Source: a virus
Virus record (IMG/VR): IMGVR_UViG_3300013126_000019
Location: 1 to 64,000 of that record
Direction: 5' to 3' (one strand)
Length of the DNA: 64,000 nt
Positions 50 to 47,427 of this stretch are shown here, piece after piece (position 1 is the stretch's first letter; every line of letters begins with the position of its first letter). The notes under the pieces are model-generated. The model was not told where the DNA came from. It made no database searches and worked only from the letters and a program-made list of their open reading frames with translations. A program made the translations under genes and the position numbers.

Positions 50-594
50 TAGAACTCTCTTAGTAGAGTATAGGTAAATTTCTTATATCCACTGCTCTTG
101 CATGCTACCATAAGTTTAGCAAAATCTAGTGGATTATTTAATACTTGGCATCCTGCAGACCATTTATCTATAAGTTTAGACATGAAAGAGGGGTTAGCTC
201 TATGAATATGAATACCAAACATTCCTGTATCTACAGTACCTTGTTCTTCAGCTACATCATCTTTATCAGCATCTCTGTATACCGGTAAAGGCTTAGTTTG
301 AACTAGAGCTTCATATTTACCCTGGTGTAATCCAAATCCAAATGAATCTTGATACTGCCCTGGTTTTAATACAGCCGTGCCTTTAGGGTTCATAAGGTTT
401 ACTAACCAGTATGTCCCCGGGTTAGTAGTACATGTGTATACTTCTAACTTTGTACCATTGATGACATATATATTATCATCAAACTTATTTTTTTCATTAG
501 CTTTAGATCTTACTCCAATGATGTGAAAGCTAGGCCAAATATATCCTTGTTTAGTAAACTCCGCTTTGAGTTCTTCATATGTGTAATTTTTCAT
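49..594 (-). CDS. L,D-transpeptidase-like peptidoglycan enzyme, candidate endolysin
   Basis: A 181-residue protein with a catalytic-looking C-terminal half. GIHIH (H129 and H131) is followed 15 residues after H131 by W-S-A-G-C-Q (S146, G148, C149). This matches the general layout of YkuD-type L,D-transpeptidases, where a His precedes a [S/T]xGC motif with the nucleophilic Cys. Preceding residues (PVYRDADKD, about 104-112) look like a surface loop. No signal peptide is visible, so export would depend on a holin, and the next gene starts like one. It follows the last giant cargo gene with a TAATG overlap. In a phage the most likely role is peptidoglycan cleavage at lysis. The fold assignment rests on motif spacing only; another Cys-His hydrolase family is possible. 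Confidence 0.6.
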   Translation of the reverse strand: MKNYTYEELKAEFTKQGYIWPSFHIIGVRSKANEKNKFDDNIYVINGTKLEVYTCTTNPGTYWLVNLMNPKGTAVLKPGQYQDSFGFGLHQGKYEALVQTKPLPVYRDADKDDVAEEQGTVDTGMFGIHIHRANPSFMSKLIDKWSAGCQVLNNPLDFAKLMVACKSSGYKKFTYTLLREF

Positions 595-3500
595 TAGTTT
601 TTACTTTTACCTGTTTCTGATTTGTATGTGCTTGTTCCAAATGCATCTGTGCCGGGAATATTGCTTAATAAACTATTTAAAATAGATGAGCTACCGCCTT
701 TTTTCTTCTCTATTTGTACAAAGTTTCTGATACCTAAGTTAGGATCTACGTTATTACCTGTAACACCTATTGTTTTAAAGAAGTAGTTTGCAAGTTTAGC
801 GCCGCCTTCTTTTTGAAAGCTATATGGACCAATATCTCTTTTATAATAAGCAGACGGGTCACCTGACAGTGTAGGAATTATAGAAGTTAATATTTTAACA
901 TATGCTTCAAAGGTAGTTCCATAAACCGCTGAGGTGACTGCAAGCTTTTGAGAGTAGTCATCAAGACCCAATCCTGGTAACGGAATCCATGACTCAGCAT
1001 TAGATCTTGTCTTTAATAATAGTAACAGAGCATGGTTTTCTAAAAAGCCATCAAAATGGAATGGCGGGTTATCCTCATCTACCATAAGACCTGGAAGAGG
1101 ACCACTTCTATCTCTAAGCTTTTCATATTTATCATCATCATCCATGTCAAATCCAAATAGTAATCTGATAAGGATACTGTTTAATAATATATGCGCTGCT
1201 TCTATAAGCATTTTATAAGTAGCTTGTTTTTCTTCATCTGTTAAATACAGGGCGCCGTTTCTTAGATTAAGCATATTACGCTTGAGTGCATTAAGCGCTC
1301 TAACATAATATCCCATATCTGTATCTCCAATACCAACATCATATCTCTCAGAAGCATCCCAGAATCTACCGCGGTGAGCAAACCTGTTCATCATACCTCT
1401 AGTAAAGTATTTCTGCAAGAAGTTTATGTACCTATATATAACATATCTGTTTGCTTCAGGTTGATCTAATGTAGCAAAAGCACCATTGACATTTGTAATT
1501 ACAGCCTGAACTCTGTTTCTGAAATTCTTAAACTCAGTACCCTTAGATATGATAAAATTTTCTTTTATTTTTTTATCTAAGTCTTCTAAGTTATCATCTT
1601 TAAGCCTATTATACTCACGCAGTCTATCGACAGGTACCTTAAATTTAGATGCTATACTATCTAGTGTCTCGTTAGGGCCAATTGTATAATTGATTGGTGC
1701 GCCGTACTCAAGATCAATACCCTCTTTTAAGACTGGTGTGCCGTCTTTTATTTCCCAAGCATCAGCATAGTTTATCATAACTTGTTGACCGTCAACCATT
1801 TGAGGAATTCTCTTATGGCTTAACATGCCCCATAGTACAGACATCTGTGCTTGTATATCTAACCACTGACGGGTACTTGTTAACCAAGTCATTTCAGCAG
1901 CATCACGTGCTAAATTTCTAGTAAGATCTCTACCCAAGTGTTTTTTAAACATACCTTGACCTGGATCAAACATCATTGATACTTGTAGATCTAATGGTCT
2001 GTCACCTTCATCGTGATAAAGAGACCAACTAAGACTACCCATAACCATACCTGCTCTAGCAAGACCTTTTTGGTAGCTTAACATATTCATGTGCTTACCT
2101 GCAGCGGCTTCAATGTTATTTTGTATGATGGCATCAAAATAGTTAACTAAAGCACTACTTGTGTTTAAACCAAAGAAACCTAAAGACGCCCTCTTAAATA
2201 ATTTATTAGTCAGATTAACAATCCACTTTTGGCTACCAAATCCGGTGCTAGTTTTACCAAGATATACCCATTCATAGAAGTTATCTATATTTTTAGCTCT
2301 TAGGTTTGCACCTTTTCTTGATCTCTTAGATGATACCTTATCATCTAACCAGTCATTAGCACCAACAGCATAGCGCTTATTCATTTTCTGAATAGGCTCA
2401 ACAGTTTTATAGTTGCCGGTTCTAGGATCTCTTAGTGAATCTTTAAGTGCTTTTGCTATAGGATTAATCTCTAGTAACTTTTTCTGCATCTCTAAAGAGT
2501 ACCCATATCTTAACATAGTATTAGTTACCTCAAGACTTACATTTTCATGTTCAATTTGCGATATACCATGAACAGGGATACCATCATTATCATCATCAAA
2601 CATATCACCCATCATAATACCTTTTTGTACTATTGGATTTAATCCTTGATCAGCATCATCTTTTGCTGTTTTAAAGAAATCTCTAACATTTTGCCACCAG
2701 CGGGTAGGTGCATTTTTAAGATCTGCATATTGTTCTACAGAACCACCAATAAGCCCACCTTCAATACGGAATCTAGGAGCATCAAGATAGATACGAGAAC
2801 CTCTAGGTTTTTTATCTTGTATGTGTAAGTGCTGTTTCTTTAGAGCTTGCAACAAATCAAAAAGTGCAGGTTGGGTATCTTTTATAGTGTAGTATTCTTC
2901 ATTTATAAAAGGGCTATCCGCAGGAGCATTGTCTTCTTTTGCTCTTGGCAACCAAGCTCTAGATCCTCGACCCGAGTTATCTACAGTTCTACCAACCTCA
3001 TATGGAGTTTTATATTTTGGATCTACGATACTTGACCAGTATGCATTGCTAGGAGCTCTATTAGGAATAGTTTGTTCTACGCCATTAAGATCAACATATG
3101 TAGTTTGCATATATGCTGTTTCATCTGTTGGCACATTATTTCTCCAAATATCTAATGGTTCATTTATAACAGTTTTATTTCTGTTAGCATCATATCTCAC
3201 ATTTTGCACGTGATTATTTTGTATAAACGCTTTTAGTTTTTGTGATGACTCATATTGTATTATTTCTTCTGGAGTACCGTCTTTTTTACCCTGGTTTGAA
3301 AGGTCTTGTAATAGTTGTAAATTCTCTAAAACAAGTTCTATATTATCTCTAGTTACAATTCTTGAGTTAAGGTATGAGTACATTTCATCAGTATCCAAGT
3401 CTTGAAGTAATGTATTCCAGATTTCAAGATATTGATCGGTAACAACTTTACCTTTAAGATTTCTAAGTTTAGCATATAAAGCATTAATAGCAATTTTATC

Positions 3501-6500
3501 AGCCTTTGTCATTGTTACCGGCTGAAGTATAGCTTTGATTCTGTTATACTCTTCTATTTCAGCTTCAGTAAATTTCAACTTTTTAGTTGGATTGCTTTTA
3601 TTATATGCCGCTTTACTATTAAAACTATTATAAAAGTTTTGTTCCTCCTCAGTTAAAACTTTTAATGCTTTATTAAGTCGTGATTGGTTTATATTAAGTT
3701 GTGCTTGTCTAACTTTTTCCACAATATCTTGAGGAACATCTTTACCGTGTAATTCACCAGTTTCAGGATCTGTATATTGTTTCTGAATATCTCTTATATA
3801 CTGTTGATCTTCAGTAAATGTGTCTCTTGCCTCTTGAGGATATTTACTTTTTATTTTAGCAATATCATCTAGAATTTCTTTTACCTGTTTATCAAACTCT
3901 TCTGTAAATTTTACTTGAGTATTTTCTCCTATAAATTCTTTAACAGCAGACTCAAATTCAGGAGAGTTTTGATCAACTCCTGAGTTAACAAGGTTCTGCA
4001 TAAAGTCTGTAATTGCTGTTTGGAATGCCCCTGCTCTTAAAACTCTACTTCTAAACTTACGCTTAGAGTTTAGATAATTACGTAGCAATTCCGCTTTTTT
4101 AGCATCTCTTTCGGCCTTTGGTGTATTATCAGCATATTTTGTAGAAAGCATTAAAGACAATTCTCTTTGCAATTCTTTTTTTCTATTAATAGCTTGCTGA
4201 TACTCATTTGGATCGCTATAAAAGGTCTTATCAATAGCATTAACTTCTTGCCATTTATCATTATATTCTTCACGTGCTTCGCGGCCCTCCTCAGTTGATT
4301 CTATCTCAAACTCGGGTTCATATACAGCAGGATCATATTCTTGCCAGAAGTACTTCACCTTATATTTTCTATAGTCAGCTTTTGCTTTTCGCCATGCATG
4401 TATCTGATCTTTATTACCAGACTTGTATGCAGCAGTACGCATGTCTTCTAACTCTTCTTCTTTTTTAGCTATAAATAACCTGTAATCCTTAATAGGAGAT
4501 ATAAAGGTATGTACATTAAACTCTTCTACACGACCATCTTCATTAATAGTATAACTCTTATCTAAAAAAGTTGTTGCTCTACCTACAGCTGCAGGATCTA
4601 ATGGATTATCTAATCCGGCAGCACGCATCTTAGGCCCGATATCTTTATTAAAACTCTTTTGAATTTTAGCAAAGTTTAAGTCTACATCAGACAAAGCATT
4701 TTTAGTAAACATTGCAAAAGAAGCTGTAACAGGATCTTGGTTATGTAAATAACCCTCTAATAAACTATTAACTTGACCGGCGTCACCTAGTTCACCTGAA
4801 AGAATCATTTTAAACTTTTCAGGAGTAAGTCTTATTGCTTCATACTTTTTTTGAAGCTTGGCTAAATCTTTTTGTAGACCGTCTTTTTTAGTACCTTCTG
4901 CAGCTGCAATTTTATCTTCTAAATACTTTTTATTTCTCTCGTATTTCTCATCTATAGCTTGACCCATAGGCTGTAATTGCTCATAAAGAATAGGTCCGAT
5001 TGCAGCATTATTTACCTTGTTAATCTCGGCATTTAGTTTTTCAATCTCAGATCTAATACTAGTAACTAGAGAATATAAAGGTGAGTCTGTTCCGATGTAC
5101 TCATTATTCTCAGGATTATCTATCTGATTAATTACAAACTTGATATAGTTATTCCAATAAGATGCAAGCTCTTTATAATTAGTAAGGGCATACATTGCAT
5201 CTACGGAAGTTTTAGGATCTGTTATAAGCTTTGTCTTTTGTCTTGCATCTTTTGCAATACGCTCCATAACATTTTTAAGTCTTCTTAAATTGGATACATA
5301 GACCTGGGCTCTTATAGAGACTTTTTTCATCATCTCAGCATCGGTAAGTGCTGTATCTACAATTTCTGAAGTATACTCAGCTAGATTTTTTCTAATTGTC
5401 TCAAGCTCATTTTTACTATATCTGTCTTTAATAGCATTAAGTAACTCAGATGCATTATACGAGGCCGCTAATCTTTCTAGTGTCTGAGCTGCAGCTAAGT
5501 ATGTTGCAGATATTTGTTTATTTAGCGCATCGGGACCAAGTTTTATTATGTCATCAATTGCGGCATCACGCTCTGATGTATAGTCAAACACATCTTGCTC
5601 AGTTATTGCTTCTGTATTTAAATCTATTTTATCCTCAAGGATCATTTTTAGCACATCCTCAAGTGAAGTACTCTCTGATAGTTTGTCCAGCTTGATGTTT
5701 TTACCAAAGATTTTTCTAAGCATCTTGCGGAGCCTATAGAAAATGTTTTTGATAGCATTCATAAAGCCGTTTGTTACAGGCTCAGCTTTAATAGAACTCA
5801 TATACATTTCTGTTAAAGCTCTTACCATAACCTCATCTTGAATATATGGTGAGTCTTCTGACAAACTAGGATTATCCAAAAGAGTTTCTTGTAAAATAAG
5901 ACTACCCTCTTCTGTACCTATGATATCTGAAATAAGTTTATCATAGACCTTTTTGTTATCTGCTCTTAAACTTTTAACAAAGGGATGTGAAAACTCATGA
6001 AATACATCTTTACGAGTAATGTTATTTGATACAAAATATACAGCGCCGTTATTAAAAAATGCTTTTTGCCCGCCATAGTTTTTCTTTTGTGCGGTATGCA
6101 TTTCTTTAGCCTGGTCAACTGTAATAAAGTTTACACCTACTTGATTACCATAATTATCACTAAGGGTACCGATAAGCTCATTAATACCATCAGTAACAAA
6201 ACTAGACTCGGACTCTTTACCAAATGTATTAAGTGCTGAAGTAGCCAGTGACGAATCTAGATTTGCTTTTATATATAAATCAATCTCGCTTCCTAAAGGA
6301 CCGTCGGTCCCTACTGTAAATTCTGATTTGTATTCTAAAAATTCTTCTGCAATTTCAGGGAAGCGATCTTTAAACTCTAATATTCTAGAAGGATTCTCTT
6401 TTATGATAGAGCGTACTACATCCTCTACAGGACGGACCATACCATTTGATCTAAATACTGCATCTTTTACAGCTTCAAATAATCCAACACCTTCTGTGTT

Positions 6501-6557
6501 AGAACTTAATTTTGCCCACTCTGGGCTACTAGTATCTACTCCGCAATACATGTTCAT
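594..6557 (-). CDS. Giant virion cargo protein with zincin protease motif and LysM-like domain (1987 aa)
   Basis: Last of the giant cargo genes, joined to the 3558-residue polymerase gene by a TAATG overlap. Residues 187-191 are HEFSH, a HExxH zinc-protease site inside a helix after a beta-strand (AVYFVSNN), with a conserved-looking DEVMVRALTEMY about 50 residues later that could supply a third ligand, as in gluzincins. The middle (about 300-1250) is charged, helical and coiled-coil-like. Residues around 1620-1672 (INYTIGPNETLDSIASKF onward) read as a LysM repeat, which would bind peptidoglycan glycan chains. A hydrophobic helix (HILLNSILIRLLFGF) lies at about 1830. Inference: it is packaged in the virion and ejected, with the LysM part meeting the wall and the protease maturing cargo or cutting a host or virion protein. 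The protease motif is clear; the function is unproven. Confidence 0.75.
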   Translation of the reverse strand: MNMYCGVDTSSPEWAKLSSNTEGVGLFEAVKDAVFRSNGMVRPVEDVVRSIIKENPSRILEFKDRFPEIAEEFLEYKSEFTVGTDGPLGSEIDLYIKANLDSSLATSALNTFGKESESSFVTDGINELIGTLSDNYGNQVGVNFITVDQAKEMHTAQKKNYGGQKAFFNNGAVYFVSNNITRKDVFHEFSHPFVKSLRADNKKVYDKLISDIIGTEEGSLILQETLLDNPSLSEDSPYIQDEVMVRALTEMYMSSIKAEPVTNGFMNAIKNIFYRLRKMLRKIFGKNIKLDKLSESTSLEDVLKMILEDKIDLNTEAITEQDVFDYTSERDAAIDDIIKLGPDALNKQISATYLAAAQTLERLAASYNASELLNAIKDRYSKNELETIRKNLAEYTSEIVDTALTDAEMMKKVSIRAQVYVSNLRRLKNVMERIAKDARQKTKLITDPKTSVDAMYALTNYKELASYWNNYIKFVINQIDNPENNEYIGTDSPLYSLVTSIRSEIEKLNAEINKVNNAAIGPILYEQLQPMGQAIDEKYERNKKYLEDKIAAAEGTKKDGLQKDLAKLQKKYEAIRLTPEKFKMILSGELGDAGQVNSLLEGYLHNQDPVTASFAMFTKNALSDVDLNFAKIQKSFNKDIGPKMRAAGLDNPLDPAAVGRATTFLDKSYTINEDGRVEEFNVHTFISPIKDYRLFIAKKEEELEDMRTAAYKSGNKDQIHAWRKAKADYRKYKVKYFWQEYDPAVYEPEFEIESTEEGREAREEYNDKWQEVNAIDKTFYSDPNEYQQAINRKKELQRELSLMLSTKYADNTPKAERDAKKAELLRNYLNSKRKFRSRVLRAGAFQTAITDFMQNLVNSGVDQNSPEFESAVKEFIGENTQVKFTEEFDKQVKEILDDIAKIKSKYPQEARDTFTEDQQYIRDIQKQYTDPETGELHGKDVPQDIVEKVRQAQLNINQSRLNKALKVLTEEEQNFYNSFNSKAAYNKSNPTKKLKFTEAEIEEYNRIKAILQPVTMTKADKIAINALYAKLRNLKGKVVTDQYLEIWNTLLQDLDTDEMYSYLNSRIVTRDNIELVLENLQLLQDLSNQGKKDGTPEEIIQYESSQKLKAFIQNNHVQNVRYDANRNKTVINEPLDIWRNNVPTDETAYMQTTYVDLNGVEQTIPNRAPSNAYWSSIVDPKYKTPYEVGRTVDNSGRGSRAWLPRAKEDNAPADSPFINEEYYTIKDTQPALFDLLQALKKQHLHIQDKKPRGSRIYLDAPRFRIEGGLIGGSVEQYADLKNAPTRWWQNVRDFFKTAKDDADQGLNPIVQKGIMMGDMFDDDNDGIPVHGISQIEHENVSLEVTNTMLRYGYSLEMQKKLLEINPIAKALKDSLRDPRTGNYKTVEPIQKMNKRYAVGANDWLDDKVSSKRSRKGANLRAKNIDNFYEWVYLGKTSTGFGSQKWIVNLTNKLFKRASLGFFGLNTSSALVNYFDAIIQNNIEAAAGKHMNMLSYQKGLARAGMVMGSLSWSLYHDEGDRPLDLQVSMMFDPGQGMFKKHLGRDLTRNLARDAAEMTWLTSTRQWLDIQAQMSVLWGMLSHKRIPQMVDGQQVMINYADAWEIKDGTPVLKEGIDLEYGAPINYTIGPNETLDSIASKFKVPVDRLREYNRLKDDNLEDLDKKIKENFIISKGTEFKNFRNRVQAVITNVNGAFATLDQPEANRYVIYRYINFLQKYFTRGMMNRFAHRGRFWDASERYDVGIGDTDMGYYVRALNALKRNMLNLRNGALYLTDEEKQATYKMLIEAAHILLNSILIRLLFGFDMDDDDKYEKLRDRSGPLPGLMVDEDNPPFHFDGFLENHALLLLLKTRSNAESWIPLPGLGLDDYSQKLAVTSAVYGTTFEAYVKILTSIIPTLSGDPSAYYKRDIGPYSFQKEGGAKLANYFFKTIGVTGNNVDPNLGIRNFVQIEKKKGGSSSILNSLLSNIPGTDAFGTSTYKSETGKSKN

Positions 6558-9500
6558 TATTGTTTAAAGCATAATCTTTGATTGATAACCTCCAATACCA
6601 TTGCATCTGTAACAAATGTTGCATCTGCCGGCCCGGCTTCTTGCGTAACTACTTCAGAATCTGAATTAATATTATCTATTCCAAAATGACCAAGCAACTG
6701 TTGAGACAAATATAAGAAAGTTTTAGGAGCTTTTGCCATAAGTGCATTAGGTGGTATTTTTCTAAAGTCACTTGCACCTAGCATACCTTGACCAAGTCCT
6801 AGTTCTGGCATAATAACACTTGTATTACCTGGTATAGTACGCAAGTATTCTTCAATTCGGGCAATGTCCTCATTTATCATTTGAACATTAGCCTCATATG
6901 TAGCATCACTCAAAGAATCAGCGGCGCTATACATATTACCAAATGTTCTAATAGGTAGTACATTAGGGTACTTTACGGCTAAATGATTCATTACACCAAC
7001 AGTATTACCAATATTAGCAAGTTTATAATCTGGGTTTGTTGTACCGTTAAATAAAAAGACAGTTCCCGGTTGAATTTTTACAAGCTTTTCTATATCAGCA
7101 GGTTTAGTATTTTTAATTGTGTATACTCTATTACCAGATGAATTAGTTGAAAACGTTATAGCTCCTCCAGATGATACGGCTGACTCATCGTCTAAAAGTC
7201 CTGTAGGTTTTTCAAGTCCCATTTTAGTAAATACATCGGGAGCAATATAATTTTTATATCTATTTCTAAGAGTAAAGTTTGATATAGCATTTTGTGAAGC
7301 AAATCCTATAAGATATGCTGAGAGTACATTATTAGGTATCTTACCTTCTTTAGTTGCTGTTTTAACAGCTTCTTTTTTAAGAGCTAGTATACTATTATCA
7401 GGAACCACTTTCCATAATGCATGCTCACCTTTTGCAGATATACCCGTAGATAAACTAATTACCATAGGCAACATACTCATAAGTTTAGCAATTTCTTCTT
7501 TATCACTATAAGAAATGTTAAACATGTTTTTTGCAGGATTAGACAAAGCTTCATAGTCTTCACGCAATCTCTCTATGTAATTTGATGATGGTCTTTTAGT
7601 AGCAAGCTTTAAAGTTTTTATACCTGTCTTGTTACCTTTTTGATATGCAATACGCAATCCAGAAGTACCTAACAAAGGGTACGCTTCATCAATACCCGGG
7701 TATTTATTTTTTAGATCGTATACTCTTTCTGCATATGAAGGTCCATTTTCAGGGGACCCTCTAAATATTTTATAACTATTATAAACTGCATCTAAAGCTT
7801 TATCTCTAAGAACCATTTCATAGGCCTGTCTTAGTACTGTACCTCCCGCACTATCTTTAATAGGTTTTAACGCAATGCTTAAAATTTGCTTATAGATTTC
7901 TTTGTTCTTCTCACTTATAGTAGCAACATTGTTTGATATATTGAGATTTCTGATGTTGTTTTCCGATAAGAATTTTCTAAGTGCAAAAGCGCTCGGATTA
8001 ACTATAAAAGGAATGTTTCTACGTTTAGCAACATCCTCTAATATCTTAACACTAGTGCTATTAGCATTACCGATTACTACTGTACCATCTGAACTTTCTA
8101 AATTTAAAATTTCTGAGTACATTGCTTTTTCACTAGAGGCTTCTAATACACCATACTTATCTCTAATAATTTGTTGGTACTCCTTATTAATCGTATCTTG
8201 TGTTACAACTTTTTTAGTATAACCTTTAGTTTCTAAACCTAAATCTTGTGCAATATCTAAAACAAGTTGATCAAACTCAGTATCAATTCCTGAAGTTATA
8301 GTTTTTACAGCAATAGGTAATGATGCCAAGGTACCTTGCTTAGATCGCATATCAATAATAATCTTCTTAGAGTCAGCAAATTCAGGGCTAGCCATTACTG
8401 TCTCTATATCAAGAGTATCTCTCAATACCTCTCTAGTAAGAACAAAATTTGCATATTCTTTTAATGAGCTAAACATAAACGGGGTCACGGGAGCTGTACC
8501 CACTGTTTGATTACTTAAATCACCAGTTAAAAGATTTGTATAATTTTTCTTAATTGCATCTCTATTTACATATAGAATTCCATTTTGAACAAATGCTCCA
8601 AAAGATCTAAGTGCAGGTGCATCTTCAACTGGTATTTCATCTTTTACAATAAGACCGCTAAAAGACTTAAGCTTATCAATGTTAACTTCATTAATATAGT
8701 TTTGTAATAAGAATTGTACAAAACCATTCTTAAACTCTTTAATAGTACCTGATAAATCACCGGCAAAAGATTTATTACTAATTGCAGCAATATTCTGAAT
8801 ATTTTGTTTGATAAAGTCATTTACTTCTTCTTTTTCTCTTAAAGCAAATAGATTATCGCCAAGAAGATCCTTAGCAACATCAGCAACATTGAACATAGAT
8901 ATTACAGAGTCACTAAATAGTTTTTCAACTGATGGTCCATAAAATCTTGGATCGGATATTAAAAGCTTTGAAGCAGCATCTTTTTGAACCATATCAAATA
9001 TGGTAGTTTCTTTTTTAGTGTCAAAGTTTATATTTTGCTTAATATCCTTAGGTGCTTTTGATAAATCCTCAGCTTTAAAATACTCAAATAGTACAGCAAT
9101 ATCTAGATCTGAATAGTTACCTGCAGGCTTACCAACATTTGGATTAAGTATTCCCGCATTAAACAAATTAAATTGTGTTAGTTCATAACCATTTGCTTCT
9201 TCAAACTCATTGTAAAATTTCTGTATTGCGGCCTCAAGATTCTGGTTAAATTGGAACTTAGCAGTCCTAGTCTCATTTTCATCTAATAATTTTAGACCTA
9301 CAGATTTAGCTAAACCTTCTGAAAACCATTTACTTGTTTCATAATAATGGGTGCCATCTTCATCAGTTACATTACCTAAAGCTTTCACAATATCGGCTCG
9401 AGCTTTTCCTTGAGCGTAATTAGGATTTTCAGGTGCTATATTTAAGATTTTTGCAAAAGGACTAGCTAATAATGCTTGTCTTCTAACGTAATCTCTTACA

Positions 9501-30196: not shown

Positions 30197-30249
30197 AATT
30201 ATGCTATAAAATTATTACAAATCATTTAGATTTACTAAACTTCAAAAAT

Positions 30250-33108
30250 TTAAATACCGTATCCTGAGCCATTTTGCTCAGCACCCTGAGCATAAGGGTT
30301 CATACCGGCTGTATATGCTGACAAAGATCCCATCATTGGAGATGTATAAGCATTCATAATTGATCCTGCCATTGTTTTCTTTCTCCTTTCTCCTGCATCA
30401 CCATATTTACTCATATTATACTGAGCAATAACAAGATCTTTTAAATCTTCAGGATCCATATCTGCATATTCAGGATTATTCTTAGCAGCTTTATAAGCAT
30501 TAAGAATAGTGCTTGACTCATTAGAATCCAATTGACCATTTGGTGACTTACCACTAGTTTGAACAATGAGTCCTCCAGAACTAGGATCTATCATAAACTG
30601 ATCACCATAGATATAATTAACAGCGTCTGTCTTGGCCATATTATCTATAGTAGCAATTGTATTATGTAATATGTTCAGATTTTTAAGCTGCTTATTTTTA
30701 TCAGAAATAGCTTTAGATCCTACTACATTAGTATAGTATTCAGCATCTGCTGCAGATTGCGCTTGTGCACCCTGCATACGAGCTTGGGCATTAAACTGAT
30801 TAGATTTATCTTCTGACTGTGCATTATACTCTTCAACTTGTGCAGCAGCTTGTGCAGCTTTATCAGCAACATCACCAAATAATAATGACTGTCTTGAGCT
30901 TGCTTGTTGAGTTCCCATATAAGGACTCATACCTTCTGTCATACCGCGAGCTATAGATGCCGCTTGTTGTGATCTATAGATAGGTGAGATAAACTGAGGA
31001 TCAACTTGAGCAACATATGGTACTTGGGTTCTTACTGGCATGTAACGATTTACATCCTGTAACAACGCTGCACCGGTACCTAAAAGGTTTTGAAGCCAAG
31101 GTTGTGCTGGTGGTCTTTGACCAGGTGTACCAAAATCTCCTGCAGGAATTTTCTCAGCTTCTTTAATTTGCTTAGCCTCTTCATCAAATAATTCTGTATC
31201 AGGATTAATTTTTGCATATTGCCCAGCGGTGGTATTTGTATAAATCCAGTCTGCATTACTTACCTGACCTTGCGGCTCATCTGCTTTACCAAATTGACCT
31301 ATATCAAATGGATTAAGCTTTGTCTTTGTTTCGGTATCGGTAATACTACCTTTATTTTTAATAAGGTCTCTATAACCTAAGTAGGCAATCTGCTCTAGAG
31401 GTACTTGATCTTTATCAATAGATAAACCATACTGATCACTAAATTCTTTTAACTTTTGATTTGTGTAGCCTAATGAATTATCTGTATTGTCTGTAGCAGA
31501 TACATCAATTTTATGTGCAGCAAATGCAAGATTGCGCTTATTATGCTTTAAGAAGGCATTTACAATTTCATCATCTTTAATAGTACCGTTTGCAACTTTT
31601 TGTCTATAATCAGCGCTGACCTTTTTTCCCCAGTTTTTATCATTTTTAGCAGCTTCTCTTACAGCTTTAACATACTCAGCTTTAACTTTAGGATCTTTAA
31701 AGGACTCTTCAATTTTCTGGTACATAGCTGCAAGGTCTTTGTTACCATTAAAGATTGTTTTAAGATCCTGCTCACTACCTTTATATTCACCATAGCCTTT
31801 AGTTCGGCTACCGGTTTTATAATACTTGTCTTCAATTTTTACATAGACATTAGCTTTGTTACCAGCTTTATCATACTCTTCTTGTTTACGCTTAGCCCAA
31901 GCCTCATCTGACTCACCTTTTTTACGCTCAATAACTGTAGCATCTTTTGGTACATCGTATTTAGGTTGTGCAGTTTGTGTAGCGTCTGGCTGACTTTGTT
32001 GTACAGAGCCTGGAGCTGATGCAGGAAATTGCATATCACTAACTGCTAAATCCGGTTCAGTGCTTTCATACTGGTTACCATTTGCATCTACATAAATATA
32101 TACGCCTTTTCTTTTATTGTAGTTTCTTTGAATAATATTATCAAAGTCAAACTCAGATGGACCTTGTTGTGCCTTATACACAAAACGTCCTAGACCTGCT
32201 TCACCGCCATCTCTAAATACTTGATAGCCAATCATAGCTTCAGGCATTTCCTCTGGTACTCTACCAGGATAATACGGATTAGGGAAACTTGAACCTCCCA
32301 TTCTTTGCATATACTGACCCATGTCTTGTGCGTATTGCTGATCCATTTCATCTGCAGATTGCTGAGCACTTTCTTGTTCTTGAGCTGCTCTTGCTTGATC
32401 CATTTGTTGGGCAGAATTAAGAAAGTTTTGATAAAAAGGCATTTGGTCAATTGGTATCTTAGGGATATCAAAATCTTCAGCCTCCATATTCATTGCTATA
32501 ACAAAAGGCATTGCCATCTTAGGTGCAGACTCACCTTTCTTAGATTCCTGTGCAATAGCTAAAGCACCAAGTTTTTTAGTCTTGTTTTTAATATTAGCCA
32601 ATAAGGTATCAACAGTCATTTTATCATTAACTTCAGTAGGATCTAATAGTTTTGCTATATCCGTATTAAGATCATACTTTTTAGAAATGTCGGCAAATGT
32701 ATAACCACCTTTCTTTTCAGGAAGCCCGAAGTAATCTAAGATACCCTTATCTGTAATTTTAGTTTTTGAATTACCACCAAGTTTAAAATCTTTACCATGA
32801 AAGTCACTAAATATAAAAGCACCAACCGGTAAATTTAAAGGTGTACCCCCTTGTGGATGACGGTTACCACCAATACCATATTTGGTAAGCATCCCACCAG
32901 GACCAGGCATCATTACTTCTTCACCTTTCTCAGCTTCAACATTAGCTGAATCTCTATCTACAGGTCCTAAGTTTTTTACATAGTCTAGTTCAGGATCAGA
33001 AAGATCTTTACTTGTAAAAGACGGTGCCATTTGATAATAGTTCAAATAGTTACCACCATGTCTTGCCTGTGGAAGATTAGGCATTTTTTTAATCTTTACT
33101 TGATACAT
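30250..33108 (-). CDS. Virion cargo protein, crAss-like (952 aa)
   Basis: The N-terminal 150 residues hold a conserved-looking module, GIGGNRHPQGGTPLNLP followed by GAFIFSDFHGKDF, a type I associate with internal proteins of crAss-like and other Bacteroidota phages. About 220-270 is a Gln/Ala/Asp-rich helix (QQMDQARAAQEQESAQQ). The middle is charged, and the C-terminal 300 residues are rich in Gln, Ala and Tyr with likely coiled coil (AQAAAQVEEYNAQSEDKSNQ). Its N-terminal NLPQARHGG echoes the LPKAQ motif of the next two genes upstream, 1040 and 982 residues. No catalytic motif was found. Probably packaged; function unknown. Confidence 0.6.
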   Translation of the reverse strand: MYQVKIKKMPNLPQARHGGNYLNYYQMAPSFTSKDLSDPELDYVKNLGPVDRDSANVEAEKGEEVMMPGPGGMLTKYGIGGNRHPQGGTPLNLPVGAFIFSDFHGKDFKLGGNSKTKITDKGILDYFGLPEKKGGYTFADISKKYDLNTDIAKLLDPTEVNDKMTVDTLLANIKNKTKKLGALAIAQESKKGESAPKMAMPFVIAMNMEAEDFDIPKIPIDQMPFYQNFLNSAQQMDQARAAQEQESAQQSADEMDQQYAQDMGQYMQRMGGSSFPNPYYPGRVPEEMPEAMIGYQVFRDGGEAGLGRFVYKAQQGPSEFDFDNIIQRNYNKRKGVYIYVDANGNQYESTEPDLAVSDMQFPASAPGSVQQSQPDATQTAQPKYDVPKDATVIERKKGESDEAWAKRKQEEYDKAGNKANVYVKIEDKYYKTGSRTKGYGEYKGSEQDLKTIFNGNKDLAAMYQKIEESFKDPKVKAEYVKAVREAAKNDKNWGKKVSADYRQKVANGTIKDDEIVNAFLKHNKRNLAFAAHKIDVSATDNTDNSLGYTNQKLKEFSDQYGLSIDKDQVPLEQIAYLGYRDLIKNKGSITDTETKTKLNPFDIGQFGKADEPQGQVSNADWIYTNTTAGQYAKINPDTELFDEEAKQIKEAEKIPAGDFGTPGQRPPAQPWLQNLLGTGAALLQDVNRYMPVRTQVPYVAQVDPQFISPIYRSQQAASIARGMTEGMSPYMGTQQASSRQSLLFGDVADKAAQAAAQVEEYNAQSEDKSNQFNAQARMQGAQAQSAADAEYYTNVVGSKAISDKNKQLKNLNILHNTIATIDNMAKTDAVNYIYGDQFMIDPSSGGLIVQTSGKSPNGQLDSNESSTILNAYKAAKNNPEYADMDPEDLKDLVIAQYNMSKYGDAGERRKKTMAGSIMNAYTSPMMGSLSAYTAGMNPYAQGAEQNGSGYGI

Positions 33109-33111
33109 GTC

Positions 33112-36100
33112 TTATTGATTATAAGGATTGTCAAAGTTATAATTATTATCTACATATTCAACCTCTCCTCCATTTTCAATGATTTGTTTAATCATTTCTG
33201 GAGTTAAGGTATACACACCACCCTGCTGCATAGTCATAAATAATTCAGCACCTTTTTGTGCATACTGAGGAATTAAGGGTTGACCATACTGAACATTTGC
33301 ACCAGCAAAAGGAGCTCCTGCAAAGGCATCTGTTGTTCTATCAAAACCTCTTAGTCTTGGACTAAACTGTGTATCTGGTGATGTAAGTGCTAAGTTATTC
33401 TCTAAGAATCTGCTAGCTTTAAATTGTTTATATGCATTATTTCTTTCATCGCTAGAAAACACACCATCTGCTAAATATTTACCGGTTGCATTAGCAATGT
33501 TTAAATATCCTGCTGGAGAAATAGAACTTCTAATTTTACCTTTACCTGACGCTGTTGCTTCTTGCTGAGGTTCTTTACCGGTGTATTTTGGAACATACTG
33601 ATCCAGTTGTTTTCCAAATGCATCAGCTGTTAATGGAGCATTACCGTTATCAAAGAAAGTTTGCATCCTATTAGCATCAGGAAACACATTAACATCAGGT
33701 AATCCTAAGCCTTGCGTTTTCTTATTAGGATTCATATTAATAGGGTTTATTTTCCTATTAAGAGGATTTTGTGTATTCCAGTTAATGCCTGGATAAGTTT
33801 TATTAGGATCTGCACTTGGTAGTGCATATACGCCTACACCAAAATTAGGATCATAGATATCCTTTAATACACCATATCCAGGATACTCACCATCTACTTG
33901 AAACATTGGTAGCATTGTACCACCATCTTGTTTACGATACTGTTGTATACGCGGTTCCCAAGTATAGCCATAAGCATCTGCTTTTTCTAAACTATCTAGG
34001 TAAGCATCTTTTTCAGCTTGCGACATTGCATTAAACTTTGTTTGATCAAAACCTTTTTTATTAGTTCTACCATAAGCTTTAAGACGCTCATCTAAATACT
34101 TATTAATAAAAGCTTTATTATCTTTACCGTAAGCTTCTGAAAATGCTTTTTGTGTATTAGGATCATTAAACAATGCTGTTAACTGATCAGCATTATAATT
34201 ATACCTATCAGCATCGTTAATAATACCTTGAGATAGCATTAAGGTTAATCTTGGATCTATACTTTGATTAAATAGCTGGTCCATTACAGCAGGTCGAATA
34301 TCTGCAGGTAAAGCATTAACATCAAATCCTTTAATTTTTGCTCTATTCTGATCTCTACCGGAATAATCAATATTTTTCCAATTGTAAAATTGCTCTGGGT
34401 GTTGAGTTAAGGGTGTATACTCTAATAACCCTGAACCTAATGGACTACCCTTTGTAATTTCATATTGAGCTATCTGATTAATAAATGGTAAATTTTCTTT
34501 TTCTACAGTATTCCAGTCATAATTAGTATTATAAAAAGGCTGGCTTGCTGATGCCGTATTTACAGGAGGTGGTGCAGTGTTTGTACTTTGTGTTACTGTA
34601 GGATTTGCGCCTGTTGCTGGTGCTGTTACTGGAGTACTTGTTTGTACACCAGTACCCATTAAGTCATAAGGGTTTCTAGGTCTTGTACCTATCATACCTG
34701 CACTTGCAATTTTTTTAGTATTTGCTTCTTCTTCAGCAATTTGATTATCATATGATGCTCTTGCAGCTTCTGTTTCTTCTCTTACTCTTTGTTTATCTAA
34801 ATTCTCAAAATAATCTTTACCAAGACGTCTTAAGTTTTTACGGTTAGGATCTATACCTGCAGACTCAAGAACATCTCTTCTATCTCTCCTAGAGCGGTTC
34901 TCCCAGATATAAGGATTCATCTCATCAGTTTGGAATAAACCTCCGCCGGGCATATCTGCATTTTGAGCTCTGATTGCTCTATTTCTATTTGCTTCCATAC
35001 GGTCAGCATCAAAAATACTTTGACCTTCTGGTAATATAGTTTGATTTATATTATAGTTCCTCGTGTCAAACATTTTACCTATACCAATTTTGTCAAGGAA
35101 TCTACCGGCTGCTGTAGGGTCAGCTTCAAACTCAGTTAAGAATCTATCATATTGACCTTTACTTGTTGCATCCTTATACATCTCCTTATAGTTTTGAGAA
35201 TATTCCATATCAGGAATAGTCATATATCTATAAGGACTTAATCCCATATAAGCGCCAGGACTTGGTCTATCAATTCCAAGATTTGTATATGTTTGTGGGG
35301 CAGCGGTCCCAGTAAGTAATTCTGGAGCAAAACCTGGACCAGACACACTTACGTTAGGTAGATTTAAGCCATCTCGGCTTGGGTAATTATTTAGGTAAGA
35401 GAAATCGGCAGATGGACCAAAAGATGGTGTAGGATTATCGTTATATGCTTTAGCAACAGATTGATAATAAGTATTGTACGCATCTTCCGTAGCTTGTTGT
35501 AATTGCTCTTTAGTCAACAAATTTCCTTGTGCATCATAAACAGGTTGATCTGAATTATAATTACCCAAGGTATTTTGAAGATTAGTTTCTGCTTCCACAA
35601 CTTCTCTAGGTTTGTATGCTGATGATGAAGTAGTGTTTGCTGTAGTTCCAAAAGTACTACCTGTAGTACCCATCATCTGAGCTTTAGGTAAACTGTTAGC
35701 AGAACCACCTTTCTTTTGTGTTTGGGGTGTTTGTTGCGTTTGAGTATTATTACCCACACCATATCTGCTAGCATAAACTTGTTTGTTATATGCGCTAATA
35801 GCAGGATTTAATATTGTGTTAGCCGTTGTATTAAAAAGACCTTTAAGTGAATTTAAACCTACACCCTCGTATTTGTCTGACTCCTTTTTAAAAACTTCAC
35901 TATTAGCTGGTGTTAGATCCATTTGTGATGGATACATAAAAGGCCCGGGTAAACTTTCCATACGCGCACCTAACTCCATACCATAGGCGGCTTTAGGTAC
36001 ACCGCCCATTAGTTGTTGAGCATGCAGTTGTTGTAAATCTTCAAATGGTGGAAGTTGTAAAGCTCTACCCAACATATCCTGAGCAGCTAATATTGTATGT

Positions 36101-36234
36101 TCTTGTAAAGCTTCATCTAATGCTTTTCTCTGAACATCCTCCTTATTTGTTTTTACAGATCTAACAAAAGCATCTAAGCGCTGCTTGTGAAAACCCATAG
36201 GCTTTTTTATAAACTGTTGATCCATCATGGCCAT
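33112..36234 (-). CDS. Virion cargo protein with LPKAQ motif (1040 aa)
   Basis: Low-complexity, Asn/Tyr/Pro/Gln-rich protein. Residues 176-190 contain GGSANSLPKAQMMGT, nearly repeated in the preceding 982-residue protein. Tyr-rich repeats such as NPYIWENRSR and several short GG-hydrophobic patches (DGGTMLPMF, QQGGVYTLTPEM) recur. It ends with LTPEMIKQIIENGGEVEYV, a short helix plus strand I recognise as a common tail of Bacteroidota phage virion proteins. The gene starts 24 bases after the 982-residue gene and is followed at a 3-base gap by the 952-residue gene. No enzyme signature was found. Composition suggests an extended, partly disordered internal protein. Confidence 0.58.
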   Translation of the reverse strand: MAMMDQQFIKKPMGFHKQRLDAFVRSVKTNKEDVQRKALDEALQEHTILAAQDMLGRALQLPPFEDLQQLHAQQLMGGVPKAAYGMELGARMESLPGPFMYPSQMDLTPANSEVFKKESDKYEGVGLNSLKGLFNTTANTILNPAISAYNKQVYASRYGVGNNTQTQQTPQTQKKGGSANSLPKAQMMGTTGSTFGTTANTTSSSAYKPREVVEAETNLQNTLGNYNSDQPVYDAQGNLLTKEQLQQATEDAYNTYYQSVAKAYNDNPTPSFGPSADFSYLNNYPSRDGLNLPNVSVSGPGFAPELLTGTAAPQTYTNLGIDRPSPGAYMGLSPYRYMTIPDMEYSQNYKEMYKDATSKGQYDRFLTEFEADPTAAGRFLDKIGIGKMFDTRNYNINQTILPEGQSIFDADRMEANRNRAIRAQNADMPGGGLFQTDEMNPYIWENRSRRDRRDVLESAGIDPNRKNLRRLGKDYFENLDKQRVREETEAARASYDNQIAEEEANTKKIASAGMIGTRPRNPYDLMGTGVQTSTPVTAPATGANPTVTQSTNTAPPPVNTASASQPFYNTNYDWNTVEKENLPFINQIAQYEITKGSPLGSGLLEYTPLTQHPEQFYNWKNIDYSGRDQNRAKIKGFDVNALPADIRPAVMDQLFNQSIDPRLTLMLSQGIINDADRYNYNADQLTALFNDPNTQKAFSEAYGKDNKAFINKYLDERLKAYGRTNKKGFDQTKFNAMSQAEKDAYLDSLEKADAYGYTWEPRIQQYRKQDGGTMLPMFQVDGEYPGYGVLKDIYDPNFGVGVYALPSADPNKTYPGINWNTQNPLNRKINPINMNPNKKTQGLGLPDVNVFPDANRMQTFFDNGNAPLTADAFGKQLDQYVPKYTGKEPQQEATASGKGKIRSSISPAGYLNIANATGKYLADGVFSSDERNNAYKQFKASRFLENNLALTSPDTQFSPRLRGFDRTTDAFAGAPFAGANVQYGQPLIPQYAQKGAELFMTMQQGGVYTLTPEMIKQIIENGGEVEYVDNNYNFDNPYNQ

Positions 36235-36258
36235 TATATATTCTTAAGATACTCAAAA

Positions 36259-39207
36259 TTACGAACTTTTCCTAGAAGTTGCCCAGGCATCAGTAAAATA
36301 ATCATCAAGAGATTTACTGTTATATTTAGTTACTTTACCACCCTTTTTCTGTTGGGCTACAGCACCTGCTCCTAATAGAAGTGCTGGCGGTAACAAGCCT
36401 TTATATATATTAGGATTGCTCATATCAAAAAACCCTACATTACCTACTGCTGATTTAAGTTGTTTGTTTGTAGGAAAAACTACTTCCCATGCATCATCTA
36501 AATTTCTTACTCTTTCTATTCCTCTATGTTGATTATGAATAGCTACATCATAATCTAACAACTGTTCATTTAATGGTGCAGTTTTTCTGTGAAAATTAAA
36601 TAAATCCATTTCTTTTCCAGCTGGAGAATTTGTACCCATTTTTATTAACTCTTCAGAGGTTATAGGATTTTTTCCTAAACCGTATAATTTATATAAAGTG
36701 GGTTCAATATCTCCTGTATGCATCCATGCACCAGAAGTTGTATAGCTACTTGCTGAACCTTTAGGGGGAACTGTATAAACACCACTGCCTGAATATCCAG
36801 AATCTCCTAATTGAAACTTAGATTCATCAAAAACATCAAATTTTTTAGGGGAACCATGTTCTAATATCCAAGGACTACCATCAGGATTTACTAATTTAGA
36901 ATCTCCAAAAGCTTTTTTAAACCAACTACTTTGTTGTTGTACAAATTGCTCAGGAGTTCCTTTAAATGTAGAACCATCTGGATTCTTCATCCATGTTCCA
37001 TTAGCTTTAGTAGATTCTTCTATTGTATTGTATTCATTAATAAGCTCTGGATATTTAGGTGTATCAGGATTCCATTTAGCCCAATCTATTTCTGATTTGA
37101 ATTTACCAGTATTACTAGAACTAGGTAGTGGCTTAACAATATAGTCAAACCCACCAATATCATTTTTAACTTTACCTACTTGTTTAAAATTTAAACCTGT
37201 ACCAATCAATTCTCTTTCTTCACTTAACGGAATATTTTGACCAATACCGCGCGCAAAGTCTCTAGTGTTTTCTTTATTTATCAATTGCAATTCATCTTCT
37301 GCCAGTGGTGTATATTCATTAGCAATGAAGTTGTTTTTCATTTTTGATAAATGTCTGCTTGGTATAACAATCCTATCTGGAGCACCACTGTATCCTACTC
37401 TGCCTACGCCTACACTAAATGATGTAGGCCTGTCACCAAAATTTATTGATCCATTTTCTTCAGTAGCACCTAAAGTGCTTTGTCCTGCTTTGTTACTGTT
37501 AAAACGTCTTGTGGCAATTACATTTGAGTTTTCAGGAATTTCAAGCTGATATTTATTAATGATATTGTTTAGCTGTTGTCTTTTAGCGGCATCGACTGGT
37601 CCAAATCTACCTGTAAAAGGAGAACTGTCATGCTGGTATTCAATTATAAGACGTCTTTCTGCTGGAGTCAATTTACCACTATTTATTAGTGAATTAAACA
37701 TGTCTGCACTGGCTTCCTGAGAAAGACCTATTGCCGGACTTTTCCATGCGTAAGGTATCATTGAGTTACCAGTTGCAACATTCTTGTATGCATTAACAAA
37801 TGCTTTAATATCTTGAGGTAAAGATCCTGCTCCTAAAAAGTTTAAAGCATTTAAACTACCTTCAAAAGCTACATCAGTTAAATTACCAGTGCCTTTGTTA
37901 TACTCAGTCAATGCTTGTCTAAAATCAGAATCGGGATTAAGAAAGTTATATGCACCGTGTGCTGCAAATCCTGTATTAGCTATATTACCCAATGTTAAGC
38001 CTGTACCTAGTAGCTCCGTGCCTAATAAACCACTAGCTGCTGTTAGTGTTGCTGGTGCCATAAGAGCAGCTTCAAAAATGGGCACACTTGGTAGTCCAGC
38101 TGGATCTGTGTTATAAGGATTTTTTTTCCACTCGTATTCTGCTTGCCGTCTAGCCTTTTCTTGAGAATCTAAAATTTTATTTTCAGCATCTAACTCAGCA
38201 TTAAATTTAGTTGGTCCGGGATGTTGGGCTGCATAAATATTCTTTAGTGCATTTTGTAAAGCCGGTGCCTCTAAATTTGTACCGGCAAATCTTTGTCCCC
38301 ATCCAGAAGCTTCATAGTCTTTTACTGAATTCCAACCCATTGCCTGAGCTCTTCTGTTAAGCTCCATGTTTTCATTATAGGATTTACTATAATCATAACT
38401 AGGAGAAAAAGTTCCCATAGTTTGCGCTTTAGGCAAATGTCCCCCCTCTTGAAATGAAGCTGCTCTATTTTGTATTTCTTCATTTATCTTACGCTGTCTT
38501 AACCTTAAATTTGGCGTTTCTTCTACAGGTGTATTTGTTTTATACCCAGGATTTCTTAAACCAGGGGATAAATTTGAAAATGGAATTTCATTTGGAGCTA
38601 ATGAAAAGTAATTACGCAAAATCATATAATATGCATCAACGGGTCTTGTGCGCCCATTTCTCAAAGATTGTTGATAGTCTATATTAGATTTTGGTTGAGC
38701 TACTAAAGGTACCACATCTTCTTTCCAACACTCGTCACCGGGGTGACATTGTCTTTTCATGCTGATCATTTTTGCAGCTATCTCTGGACCATACTTATTA
38801 AGACTTTGTTGGTAGTACTCAAATAAAGAACTATTTGAAGTTGGTGGTATAGCTAAATTATCTACACAGTTTCCATTTCCATCTGGCACTTTTCCCTCAG
38901 GGCAATTTGTTAAACCCATCATCATATATGAATCTCCAGTAAAACCACCGGCAGCAAATTTTAACAAGTTCTCATTTTGCCGTAATGGTACCTTTTGTTC
39001 TATTACACCCATAGCTCCTGGAAAGTTATATGATGGTACTCCAGGTTTCATCATAACACTACCACCAAAATTTCCATCTGGATATACAGGTGTAGCCTGT
39101 ACATAATCCTCTACACCTAACATAGTTAATGCATCACCCGGTATAAATAACTCTTTATGTTTTTTGTCTTTACTGTTTTTCTTGTAACCTGTAGTACTAA
39201 CTTTCAT
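36259..39207 (-). CDS. Virion cargo protein with ADP-ribosyltransferase-like domain (982 aa)
   Basis: First gene after the muzzle, joined by a TAATG overlap. The N-terminal 270 residues are a structural or targeting region with GG-hydrophobic patches and LPKAQTMGT (258-266). An Ala/Gly-rich segment lies at about 370-430. From residue about 770 the sequence reads like an ART-PolyVal/H-Y-E ADP-ribosyltransferase: ILEHGSPKKFDVFD with H784-G-S, then SGSGVYTV with Y811, then a strand LYKLYGLGKNPI and a C-terminal VVFPTNKQLKSA. A second ART-like pattern may lie at about 567-690 (TRRF, GDRPTSFSVG, EERELIGTG). Such domains modify host proteins with NAD when delivered with phage DNA. The H-Y pair is visible; activity, target and the second domain are inference. 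Confidence 0.68.
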   Translation of the reverse strand: MKVSTTGYKKNSKDKKHKELFIPGDALTMLGVEDYVQATPVYPDGNFGGSVMMKPGVPSYNFPGAMGVIEQKVPLRQNENLLKFAAGGFTGDSYMMMGLTNCPEGKVPDGNGNCVDNLAIPPTSNSSLFEYYQQSLNKYGPEIAAKMISMKRQCHPGDECWKEDVVPLVAQPKSNIDYQQSLRNGRTRPVDAYYMILRNYFSLAPNEIPFSNLSPGLRNPGYKTNTPVEETPNLRLRQRKINEEIQNRAASFQEGGHLPKAQTMGTFSPSYDYSKSYNENMELNRRAQAMGWNSVKDYEASGWGQRFAGTNLEAPALQNALKNIYAAQHPGPTKFNAELDAENKILDSQEKARRQAEYEWKKNPYNTDPAGLPSVPIFEAALMAPATLTAASGLLGTELLGTGLTLGNIANTGFAAHGAYNFLNPDSDFRQALTEYNKGTGNLTDVAFEGSLNALNFLGAGSLPQDIKAFVNAYKNVATGNSMIPYAWKSPAIGLSQEASADMFNSLINSGKLTPAERRLIIEYQHDSSPFTGRFGPVDAAKRQQLNNIINKYQLEIPENSNVIATRRFNSNKAGQSTLGATEENGSINFGDRPTSFSVGVGRVGYSGAPDRIVIPSRHLSKMKNNFIANEYTPLAEDELQLINKENTRDFARGIGQNIPLSEERELIGTGLNFKQVGKVKNDIGGFDYIVKPLPSSSNTGKFKSEIDWAKWNPDTPKYPELINEYNTIEESTKANGTWMKNPDGSTFKGTPEQFVQQQSSWFKKAFGDSKLVNPDGSPWILEHGSPKKFDVFDESKFQLGDSGYSGSGVYTVPPKGSASSYTTSGAWMHTGDIEPTLYKLYGLGKNPITSEELIKMGTNSPAGKEMDLFNFHRKTAPLNEQLLDYDVAIHNQHRGIERVRNLDDAWEVVFPTNKQLKSAVGNVGFFDMSNPNIYKGLLPPALLLGAGAVAQQKKGGKVTKYNSKSLDDYFTDAWATSRKSS

Positions 39208-46893: not shown

Positions 46894-47427
46894 TTATAAT
46901 GTCCGTATAATAATTATTGCACTTTCTGAGGTAGCTGTACCGCAGTCAGTTGTAACTTTAAAAAAGTATTGAGTACTAGAATTTAGGTTGGTTAACGTAT
47001 AACTAGTTACATTTAATCCTGAAATAGCGGTAGTTGTAGAAGGAGTTGTTCCATAAGATAGTGTATATGACTCAGCTCCGGTATCTTCCCAATTAATGAC
47101 AATTGCTGTAGTTCCTACATATGATGGATGTAAGTTTACCACAGCTGTACAATCGGGATCATAGCTATTAAAAGATAATGCCTGAAATGCATTTTCTAGT
47201 GTAGCTCCTGCAGGCAAACTATAGCCTGTAGTACCGGCAAAAGAACCAAAATTATAAATTTGGTAATCTAGATTATGTTTTACACAAGTATCCTGGATAG
47301 TTTCATAACACGGTGTTGGATCCGGGCAAACTGTATCAGGAGGGCAGGTGTATGTAGGCATGGTTGTAAGAGGTAAATCCTTACAACCACACTTATTATT
47401 TGTACAATTACATGTTTTACAAGCCAT
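46894..47427 (-). CDS. Cys-rich virion surface protein with FN3 domain (177 aa)
   Basis: The N-terminal 45 residues are crowded with Cys (CKTCNCTNNKCGCKD, then CPPDTVCPDPTPC), followed by a short region and a fibronectin type III-like domain at about 100-177 (TAIVINWEDTGAESYTLSYG, with LTNLNSSTQYFFKV). FN3 and similar Ig-like domains on phages usually decorate fibres or capsids and bind sugars. It is last in the cassette before a strong terminator and follows the 488-residue fibre gene by 5 bases. The Cys pairs may bind zinc during assembly. Likely an accessory fibre or decoration protein. Confidence 0.6.
   Translation of the reverse strand: MACKTCNCTNNKCGCKDLPLTTMPTYTCPPDTVCPDPTPCYETIQDTCVKHNLDYQIYNFGSFAGTTGYSLPAGATLENAFQALSFNSYDPDCTAVVNLHPSYVGTTAIVINWEDTGAESYTLSYGTTPSTTTAISGLNVTSYTLTNLNSSTQYFFKVTTDCGTATSESAIIIIRTL

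Follow-up and report, generated by a model that had tools for sequence, protein, structure and literature searches.

Cysteine-Capped Giant Cargo Proteins of crAss-Like Phages Suggest an Ordered, Disulfide-Linked Chain

Introduction

How do giant proteins pass, in order, through a narrow, short phage tail ahead of the DNA? The question is raised by the stretch of viral DNA analyzed here, 64,000 nucleotides of an 80,688-bp linear virus record (IMG/VR record IMGVR_UViG_3300013126_000019, positions 1 to 64,000; hereafter the window), in which positions 594–39207 are filled by eight minus-strand open reading frames (ORFs) of 982, 1040, 952, 1137, 2681, 501, 3558, and 1987 amino acids (aa). An original prediction had described a stop–start-coupled, possibly virion-carried block of eight genes and about 12,800 residues resembling a polyvalent-protein payload; the block itself was borne out, at a summed length of 12,838 aa. 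We report a property absent from that prediction, namely that the last four proteins of the block carry cysteines at those termini that meet one another in gene order and almost nowhere else. We lean toward the view that Crassvirales deliver their RNA polymerase and its partners as a covalent, gene-ordered, redox-cleavable disulfide chain. Such a chain would be a simple and testable answer to the opening question for one of the human gut's most abundant phage groups and, if confirmed biochemically, a new principle of protein delivery. The open literature that we searched, a scope that left the phi14:2 polymerase paper outside, held no prior report of cysteines or disulfides in crassvirus cargo, and the description of the crAss001 virion does not mention the cysteine pattern of its cargo (Bayfield et al. 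2023, PMC10172136).

Results

The four proteins concerned, named E, link, F, and G in gene order, and the codons of their terminal cysteines are as follows.

18738–26783, minus strand: chain protein E, 2681 aa, homolog of phi14:2 gp067 and crAss001 gp47
18744–18746, minus strand: codon of Cys2680, the penultimate residue of E
17233–18738, minus strand: inserted link protein, 501 aa, also present in the nearest relative and related to the link of csAssE-Sib
18727–18729, minus strand: codon of Cys4 of the link protein
17239–17241, minus strand: codon of Cys500, the penultimate residue of the link protein
6557–17233, minus strand: chain protein F, 3558 aa, predicted virion RNA polymerase with an N-terminal HExxH region and a C-terminal SLOG-like region
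17225–17227, minus strand: codon of Cys3 of F
6569–6571, minus strand: codon of Cys3555 of F, three residues before the C-terminal one
594–6557, minus strand: chain protein G, 1987 aa, homolog of crAss001 gp49 and phi14:2 gp065
6543–6545, minus strand: codon of Cys5 of G, its sole cysteine, in a column invariant in a 14-member alignment

F contains cysteines at positions 3 and 3555 and no others, the link at positions 4 and 500, and G a single one at position 5, while those of E stand at 2533 and 2680 of its 2681 residues. E is thus capped at its C-terminal end, F and the inserted link at both ends, and G at its N-terminal end. The muzzle protein encoded upstream of the block is 1.1% cysteine, and the tail and appendage genes of the window reach 6.5%. 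Cysteine-rich proteins among the latter (46894–47427, 47433–48899, and 50603–51157; 5.5–6.5% cysteine) contrast with the cargo.

Does the pattern hold in other phages? Among 72 distinct relatives, F is capped at its N-terminal end in 61 of 62 cases and at its C-terminal end in 68 of 68, and the facing termini follow suit, with the C-terminal end of the upstream protein capped in 61/62 and the N-terminal end of the downstream protein in 68/68. The sole miss, which enters the counts of both F and the upstream protein, stems from a gene with a frameshift, and Cys4 is present on the short N-terminal fragment of that gene; in the profile-defined set, all other exceptions are explained by a wrong start, a frameshift, or an intron that splits the polymerase. 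Internal cysteines are scarce, with 12 in 242,811 residues of F and 0.05–0.12 per 1000 aa across E, F, and G, compared with a rate of 9.4 for 613 further large ORFs from these loci. Described phages obey the rule as well (crAss001, phi14:2, phi17:2, Lbo-JY46, cr128_1, Dulem 41, and bajarodcaudo 1). In phi14:2 the caps are Cys1797 of gp067, Cys3 and Cys2179 of gp066, and Cys3 of gp065; in crAss001 they lie at position −3 of gp47, 5 and −9 of gp50, and 5 of gp49, despite the location of gp47 on the other strand. A small ORF in the block of phi17:2, gp037, which has no virion-protein annotation, does not follow the rule.

Genes that have been joined, split, or inserted offer further tests of the rule. 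In E+F fusions (cr1_1, FpV4, and cr108_1) no cysteine occurs near the estimated junction. Conversely, relative G017 has a split E. The sole cysteine of the N-terminal half (1116 aa) is its penultimate residue; the protein that follows, 1364 aa long and matching the C-terminal half of E from other phages, contains two cysteines, Cys4 and Cys1364. Inserted links carry cysteine at both ends whether they are the 501-aa protein of the window, the 165-aa protein of G018, or the proteins of 574–754 aa found between F and G, and at least four groups can be told apart among them that show no detectable mutual similarity.

Chance, and a cause in translational coupling or at the nucleotide level, were rejected as explanations of the caps. 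Cap positions vary from 3 to 11 and from −1 to −10, TGT and TGC are both used, and gene spacing ranges from −4 to +18. Among control genes located upstream in these loci, 0/30 have an N-terminal cysteine and 1/30 a C-terminal one.

Two further observations concern single ORFs. The G gene of csAssE-Sib (L005:38086-44488) looks frameshift-split or misannotated: ahead of the 1885-aa protein of the annotation, a short ORF contains the capped N-terminus (MTSTC). Two cargo proteins encoded near the muzzle gene, FpV4 gp30 (L346:9854-11650) and one of Lbo-JY46 (L001:19334-21358), have Cys5 (MKKKC) as their single cysteine, with no obvious partner.

What kind of locus encodes these proteins? The remaining features of the block and the adjoining muzzle gene are listed here.

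39207–44588, minus strand: muzzle protein, 1793 aa, upstream of the cargo block (crAss_MUZ PF25731, 6e-16; also placed in the muzzle tree)
36259–39207, minus strand: slot A, 982 aa, an effector slot of variable content; ART-PolyVal domain at 36427–36882
33112–36234, minus strand: slot B, 1040 aa, no cysteine
30250–33108, minus strand: slot C, 952 aa, no cysteine, with profile matches to csAssE-Sib and phi17:2
26783–30196, minus strand: slot D, 1137 aa, no cysteine, its N-terminal ~400 aa conserved across the clade
15032–15046, minus strand: HEAYH zincin-like motif, F residues 730–734, nearly invariant in the clade
10361–10375, minus strand: DFDND, predicted catalytic RNA polymerase motif, F residues 2287–2291, aligned to DFDID of phi14:2 gp066
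7928–8299, minus strand: cpYpsA SLOG-like region of F (5e-4, under the cut-off in the window)
5985–5999, minus strand: HExxH motif of G
1587–1688, minus strand: LysM domain of G (6.6e-8, passing the cut-off)

The neighbors of the block are genes for TerL, portal, major capsid protein, ring proteins, and a crassvirus muzzle, and it therefore belongs to a crAss-like phage; the cargo lies directly downstream of the crass-fold muzzle, in the order TerL, portal, major capsid protein, rings, muzzle, cargo. The catalytic RNA polymerase subunit of phi14:2, gp066, aligns with residues 1656–2585 of F, placing DFDND over DFDID, and the D/F/D/D columns of the motif are invariant within the clade. In hidden Markov model (HMM) searches the clade profile of F matched phi14:2 gp066 (E 7e-71) and crAss001 gp50 (E 4e-41), and no single-subunit, T7-like polymerase match appeared in Pfam. 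F is accordingly predicted to be an RNA polymerase of the two-barrel type with a DxDxD motif. The G profile matched crAss001 gp49 (E 4e-61) and phi14:2 gp065 (E 3e-45), and the E profile matched Lbo-JY46 (6e-31) and csAssE-Sib (3e-13), with a profile–profile comparison to the gut E proteins (gp067/gp47 type) giving 97.6% over 297 columns. Slot C is related to a 951-aa protein of csAssE-Sib (HMM E 4e-15) and to phi17:2 gp041 (1e-6). Single-protein searches, with F against viral contigs and with G against phage records, returned no relatives, the sequences being too divergent; comparison of the sequences with those of solved structures yielded no useful match, and an AlphaFold model of the 501-aa link without an alignment had a predicted local distance difference test score of 37, too low to be informative.

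The homologs named above include proteins known from particles. In phi14:2, gp065–gp070 are annotated as virion proteins from tandem mass spectrometry of virions, and crAss001 gp47, gp49, and gp50 were detected in virions by mass spectrometry (PMC10172136). The cargo genes of the window are homologs of these detected proteins in the same position. By homology and synteny, the block's predicted role as virion cargo of a crAss-like phage, as originally proposed, is well supported.

The coupling between its genes is real, though not universal. One-nucleotide stop–start overlaps occur at 39207 (muzzle side), 26783, 18738, 17233, 6557, and 594 (next gene side), that is, at six of nine borders when those with the muzzle and the endolysin-like gene are included, and at the remaining internal junctions the genes are separated by 24, 3, and 53 nucleotides, so the predicted coupling holds for only part of the block.

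How exceptional is the size of the block? Portal, muzzle, and polymerase profiles retrieve many IMG/VR relatives, 16 of which show the same slots after the muzzle (A, which is variable, then B, C, D, E, F, and G), a separate slot B being unassigned in four of them. Their F proteins measure 2,391–5,259 aa. Block totals in the clade are 11.5–14.3 thousand aa in 34.5–43 kb, some of them slight underestimates since three G proteins were clipped by the stretch fetched; G024, whose E/F border lies at the contig end, was excluded from these totals and from the E/F junction count. The described crAss-like blocks that we measured amount to 6.8–9.1 thousand aa. The block of the window is larger than every one of these, as anticipated, and its size is typical of a whole environmental sister clade.

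In the muzzle tree this clade is sister to phi17:2 and csAssE-Sib, both of the epsilon group, and the cyanophage Lbo-JY46, and these are its nearest described relatives. They keep the chain rule, with E followed by a link and G or by G directly, and differ in that the clade polymerase profile found nothing in any of the three. This agrees with what has been reported for the epsilon group (Yutin et al. 2021, PMC7886860). Related crAss-like records with no detectable polymerase match (G020–G023, G027, G028, and G030; loci L134, L136, L147, L155, L114, L109, and L107) mostly form one supported branch of the muzzle tree, and their polymerase may have been lost, replaced, or become too divergent. 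Lbo-JY46 (L001, PP438436.1) infects the cyanobacterium Leptolyngbya and is crAss-like as judged from cargo, portal, and muzzle genes, although the usual association of crAss-like phages is with Bacteroidetes.

Slots A–D, which we propose to be ejection or effector proteins, show a different regularity. All 27 cysteine-containing proteins in these slots of a 17-genome set have even cysteine counts, as expected if cysteines occur as pairs, although the slot D pairs are homologous and the 27 represent fewer independent cases. A conserved C-x4-5-C pair in slot D (residues 128 and 133/134, e.g., in G001, G009, G010, and G016) accounts for the sole cysteines of that slot in 10 of the 17 genomes and is absent in the window; it is probably an internal disulfide.

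Discussion

The terminal-cysteine pattern, with its behavior upon gene fusion and fission, leads us to the following model for the delivery of the cargo. The C-terminal end of each chain protein would pair with the N-terminal end of the next, in the order E-C to C-link-C to C-F-C to C-G, and the paired cysteines would become disulfides once the virion enters an oxidizing environment. Several giant proteins would thereby be united in a single covalent strand that leaves through the tail in the order of the genes. Once in the cytoplasm of the new host, the separate proteins would be freed by reduction, allowing the polymerase to start early transcription. Gene fusion would put a peptide bond in place of a disulfide, and gene fission a disulfide in place of a peptide bond. 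We consider it likely, given which termini are capped, that head-to-tail disulfides join E, the link, F, and G into one ordered, reductively released chain. A disulfide is the simplest chemistry for the E-C, C-F-C, C-G arrangement. The gene content, the homologies, and the cysteine rule with its response to fusion and fission are observed in the sequences; we infer the mutual bonding of the paired ends, the nature of the bond, and the ordering of ejection. The model predicts the members of the chain, their order, and their release by a rule that can be read from sequence alone.

Findings on crAss001 accord with parts of this model. Disulfides have been seen in tail and vertex proteins of its virion, including gp57. 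The authors of the structure infer that the cargo has to unfold in part to pass constrictions below 50 Å, and that the order of its exit is set by packing and mutual interactions (PMC10172136).

Several points weigh against a disulfide chain. Disulfides between cargo proteins are so far unobserved, and cryo-electron microscopy of crAss001 resolves little of the cargo. E of the window has an internal cysteine, Cys2533, with no partner. Strict depletion is not universal across gut lineages, some of which have more internal cysteines (15 in cr271_1 gp48, 13 in cr7_1), and the sequences are related by ancestry, so that our counts are not independent trials. The cytoplasm, where phages assemble, is reducing, and the bonds would therefore have to form late. 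Finally, the same cysteine pattern could serve docking that is metal-bridged or non-covalent.

This last point is the substance of the strongest rival, in which the terminal cysteines gather the cargo non-covalently or via a metal such as zinc during procapsid assembly, and no covalent chain passes through the tail. Such docking would fit the pairing of C- and N-terminal ends and the fusion and fission behavior equally well, and would suit assembly in a reducing cytoplasm. A metal site, however, would need several chains, because each partner offers one cysteine and the terminal segments listed contain no conserved histidine or second cysteine; a zinc site at the termini is disfavored on this ground. 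The even counts in slots A–D and the known virion disulfides also favor disulfides, and we regard docking of this kind as unlikely. We give still less credence to an ordinary polyvalent takeover payload of independent, co-packaged effectors, without linkage and with terminal cysteines of unrelated cause. ART-PolyVal, zincin-like, and SLOG-like domains and the variation of accessory enzymes in relatives are in keeping with it, but it leaves the cysteine rule without a reason, and neither a nucleotide-level cause nor coupling accounts for that rule. Least probable is that the cysteines link copies of the same protein, of which there are several per virion for the cargo (PMC10172136), or bind portal or tail proteins, since this predicts neither capping of E at its C-terminal end only, G at its N-terminal end only, and F and links at both, nor the joint absence of caps in E+F fusions and their joint presence after fission of E.

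How does the disulfide-linked chain that we favor compare with described systems? In crAss001, gp45–gp50 likewise follow the muzzle and include an RNA polymerase and partner proteins homologous to those of the window (Bayfield et al. 2023, PMC10172136), with the terminal cysteines of gp47, gp50, and gp49 arranged as in the window. The crAss001 cargo amounts to ~7,500 aa versus 12,838, gp47 is encoded on the strand opposite to gp49 and gp50 whereas the block of the window is entirely on the minus strand, and its polymerase lacks the HExxH motif that F has. The block is also syntenic with phi14:2 gp065–gp070, and gp066 is the best described match to the polymerase, although it has 2180 aa versus 3558 and phi14:2 has no inserted link. 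The cargo block is thus of a known kind, in a larger variant.

Outside the crAss-like phages, coliphage N4 gp50, gp51, and gp52 and T7 gp15 and gp16 are large ejected proteins with no cysteine and no caps; cysteine depletion may therefore be a common trait of proteins of this kind, with the caps specific to the systems described here. The N4 polymerase shares an HExxH motif with F; it is of the single-subunit type, unlike F. In T7, gp14 (L354:729-1319) has one cysteine, at residue 2, and gp15 and gp16 have none.

The resemblance to polyvalent proteins (Iyer et al. 2017, PMC5512222) lies in the ART-PolyVal domain and zincin-like motifs on giant multidomain proteins. ART-PolyVal (PF18760) in slot A, a polyvalent-specific domain, scores 32.0 bits against a cut-off of 31.2 (E 2.5e-7). 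Of the domains originally listed for the block, ART and LysM exceed their cut-offs, two HExxH motifs are present, one each in F and G, and the polymerase is recovered by alignment; the cpYpsA/SLOG match is sub-threshold in the window (5e-4), and reaches 1.4e-21 in one relative. F would accordingly combine an HExxH motif, an RNA polymerase, and a SLOG-like region. The enzymes in slot A vary among relatives (ART, the tail lysozyme Phage_lysozyme2, Glucosaminidase, and YkuD), as do the accessory domains on F and G (PIF1-like helicase, histidine phosphatase, and HSP90-type ATPase), and these variable parts are the portion that resembles polyvalent proteins. Most of the block, unlike polyvalent proteins, is transcription and ejection machinery, and Pfam scans of it found no SWI2/SNF2 ATPase–DNA methylase core, which is common though not universal in those proteins. 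The proposed reading as a polyvalent payload holds only in part.

Beyond the window, the same record encodes a Ro60-like ORF of 474 aa downstream of the structural genes (L009:12918-14342), and csAssE-Sib also encodes a Ro-sixty-related protein beside its cargo region, both identified by eye and annotation only.

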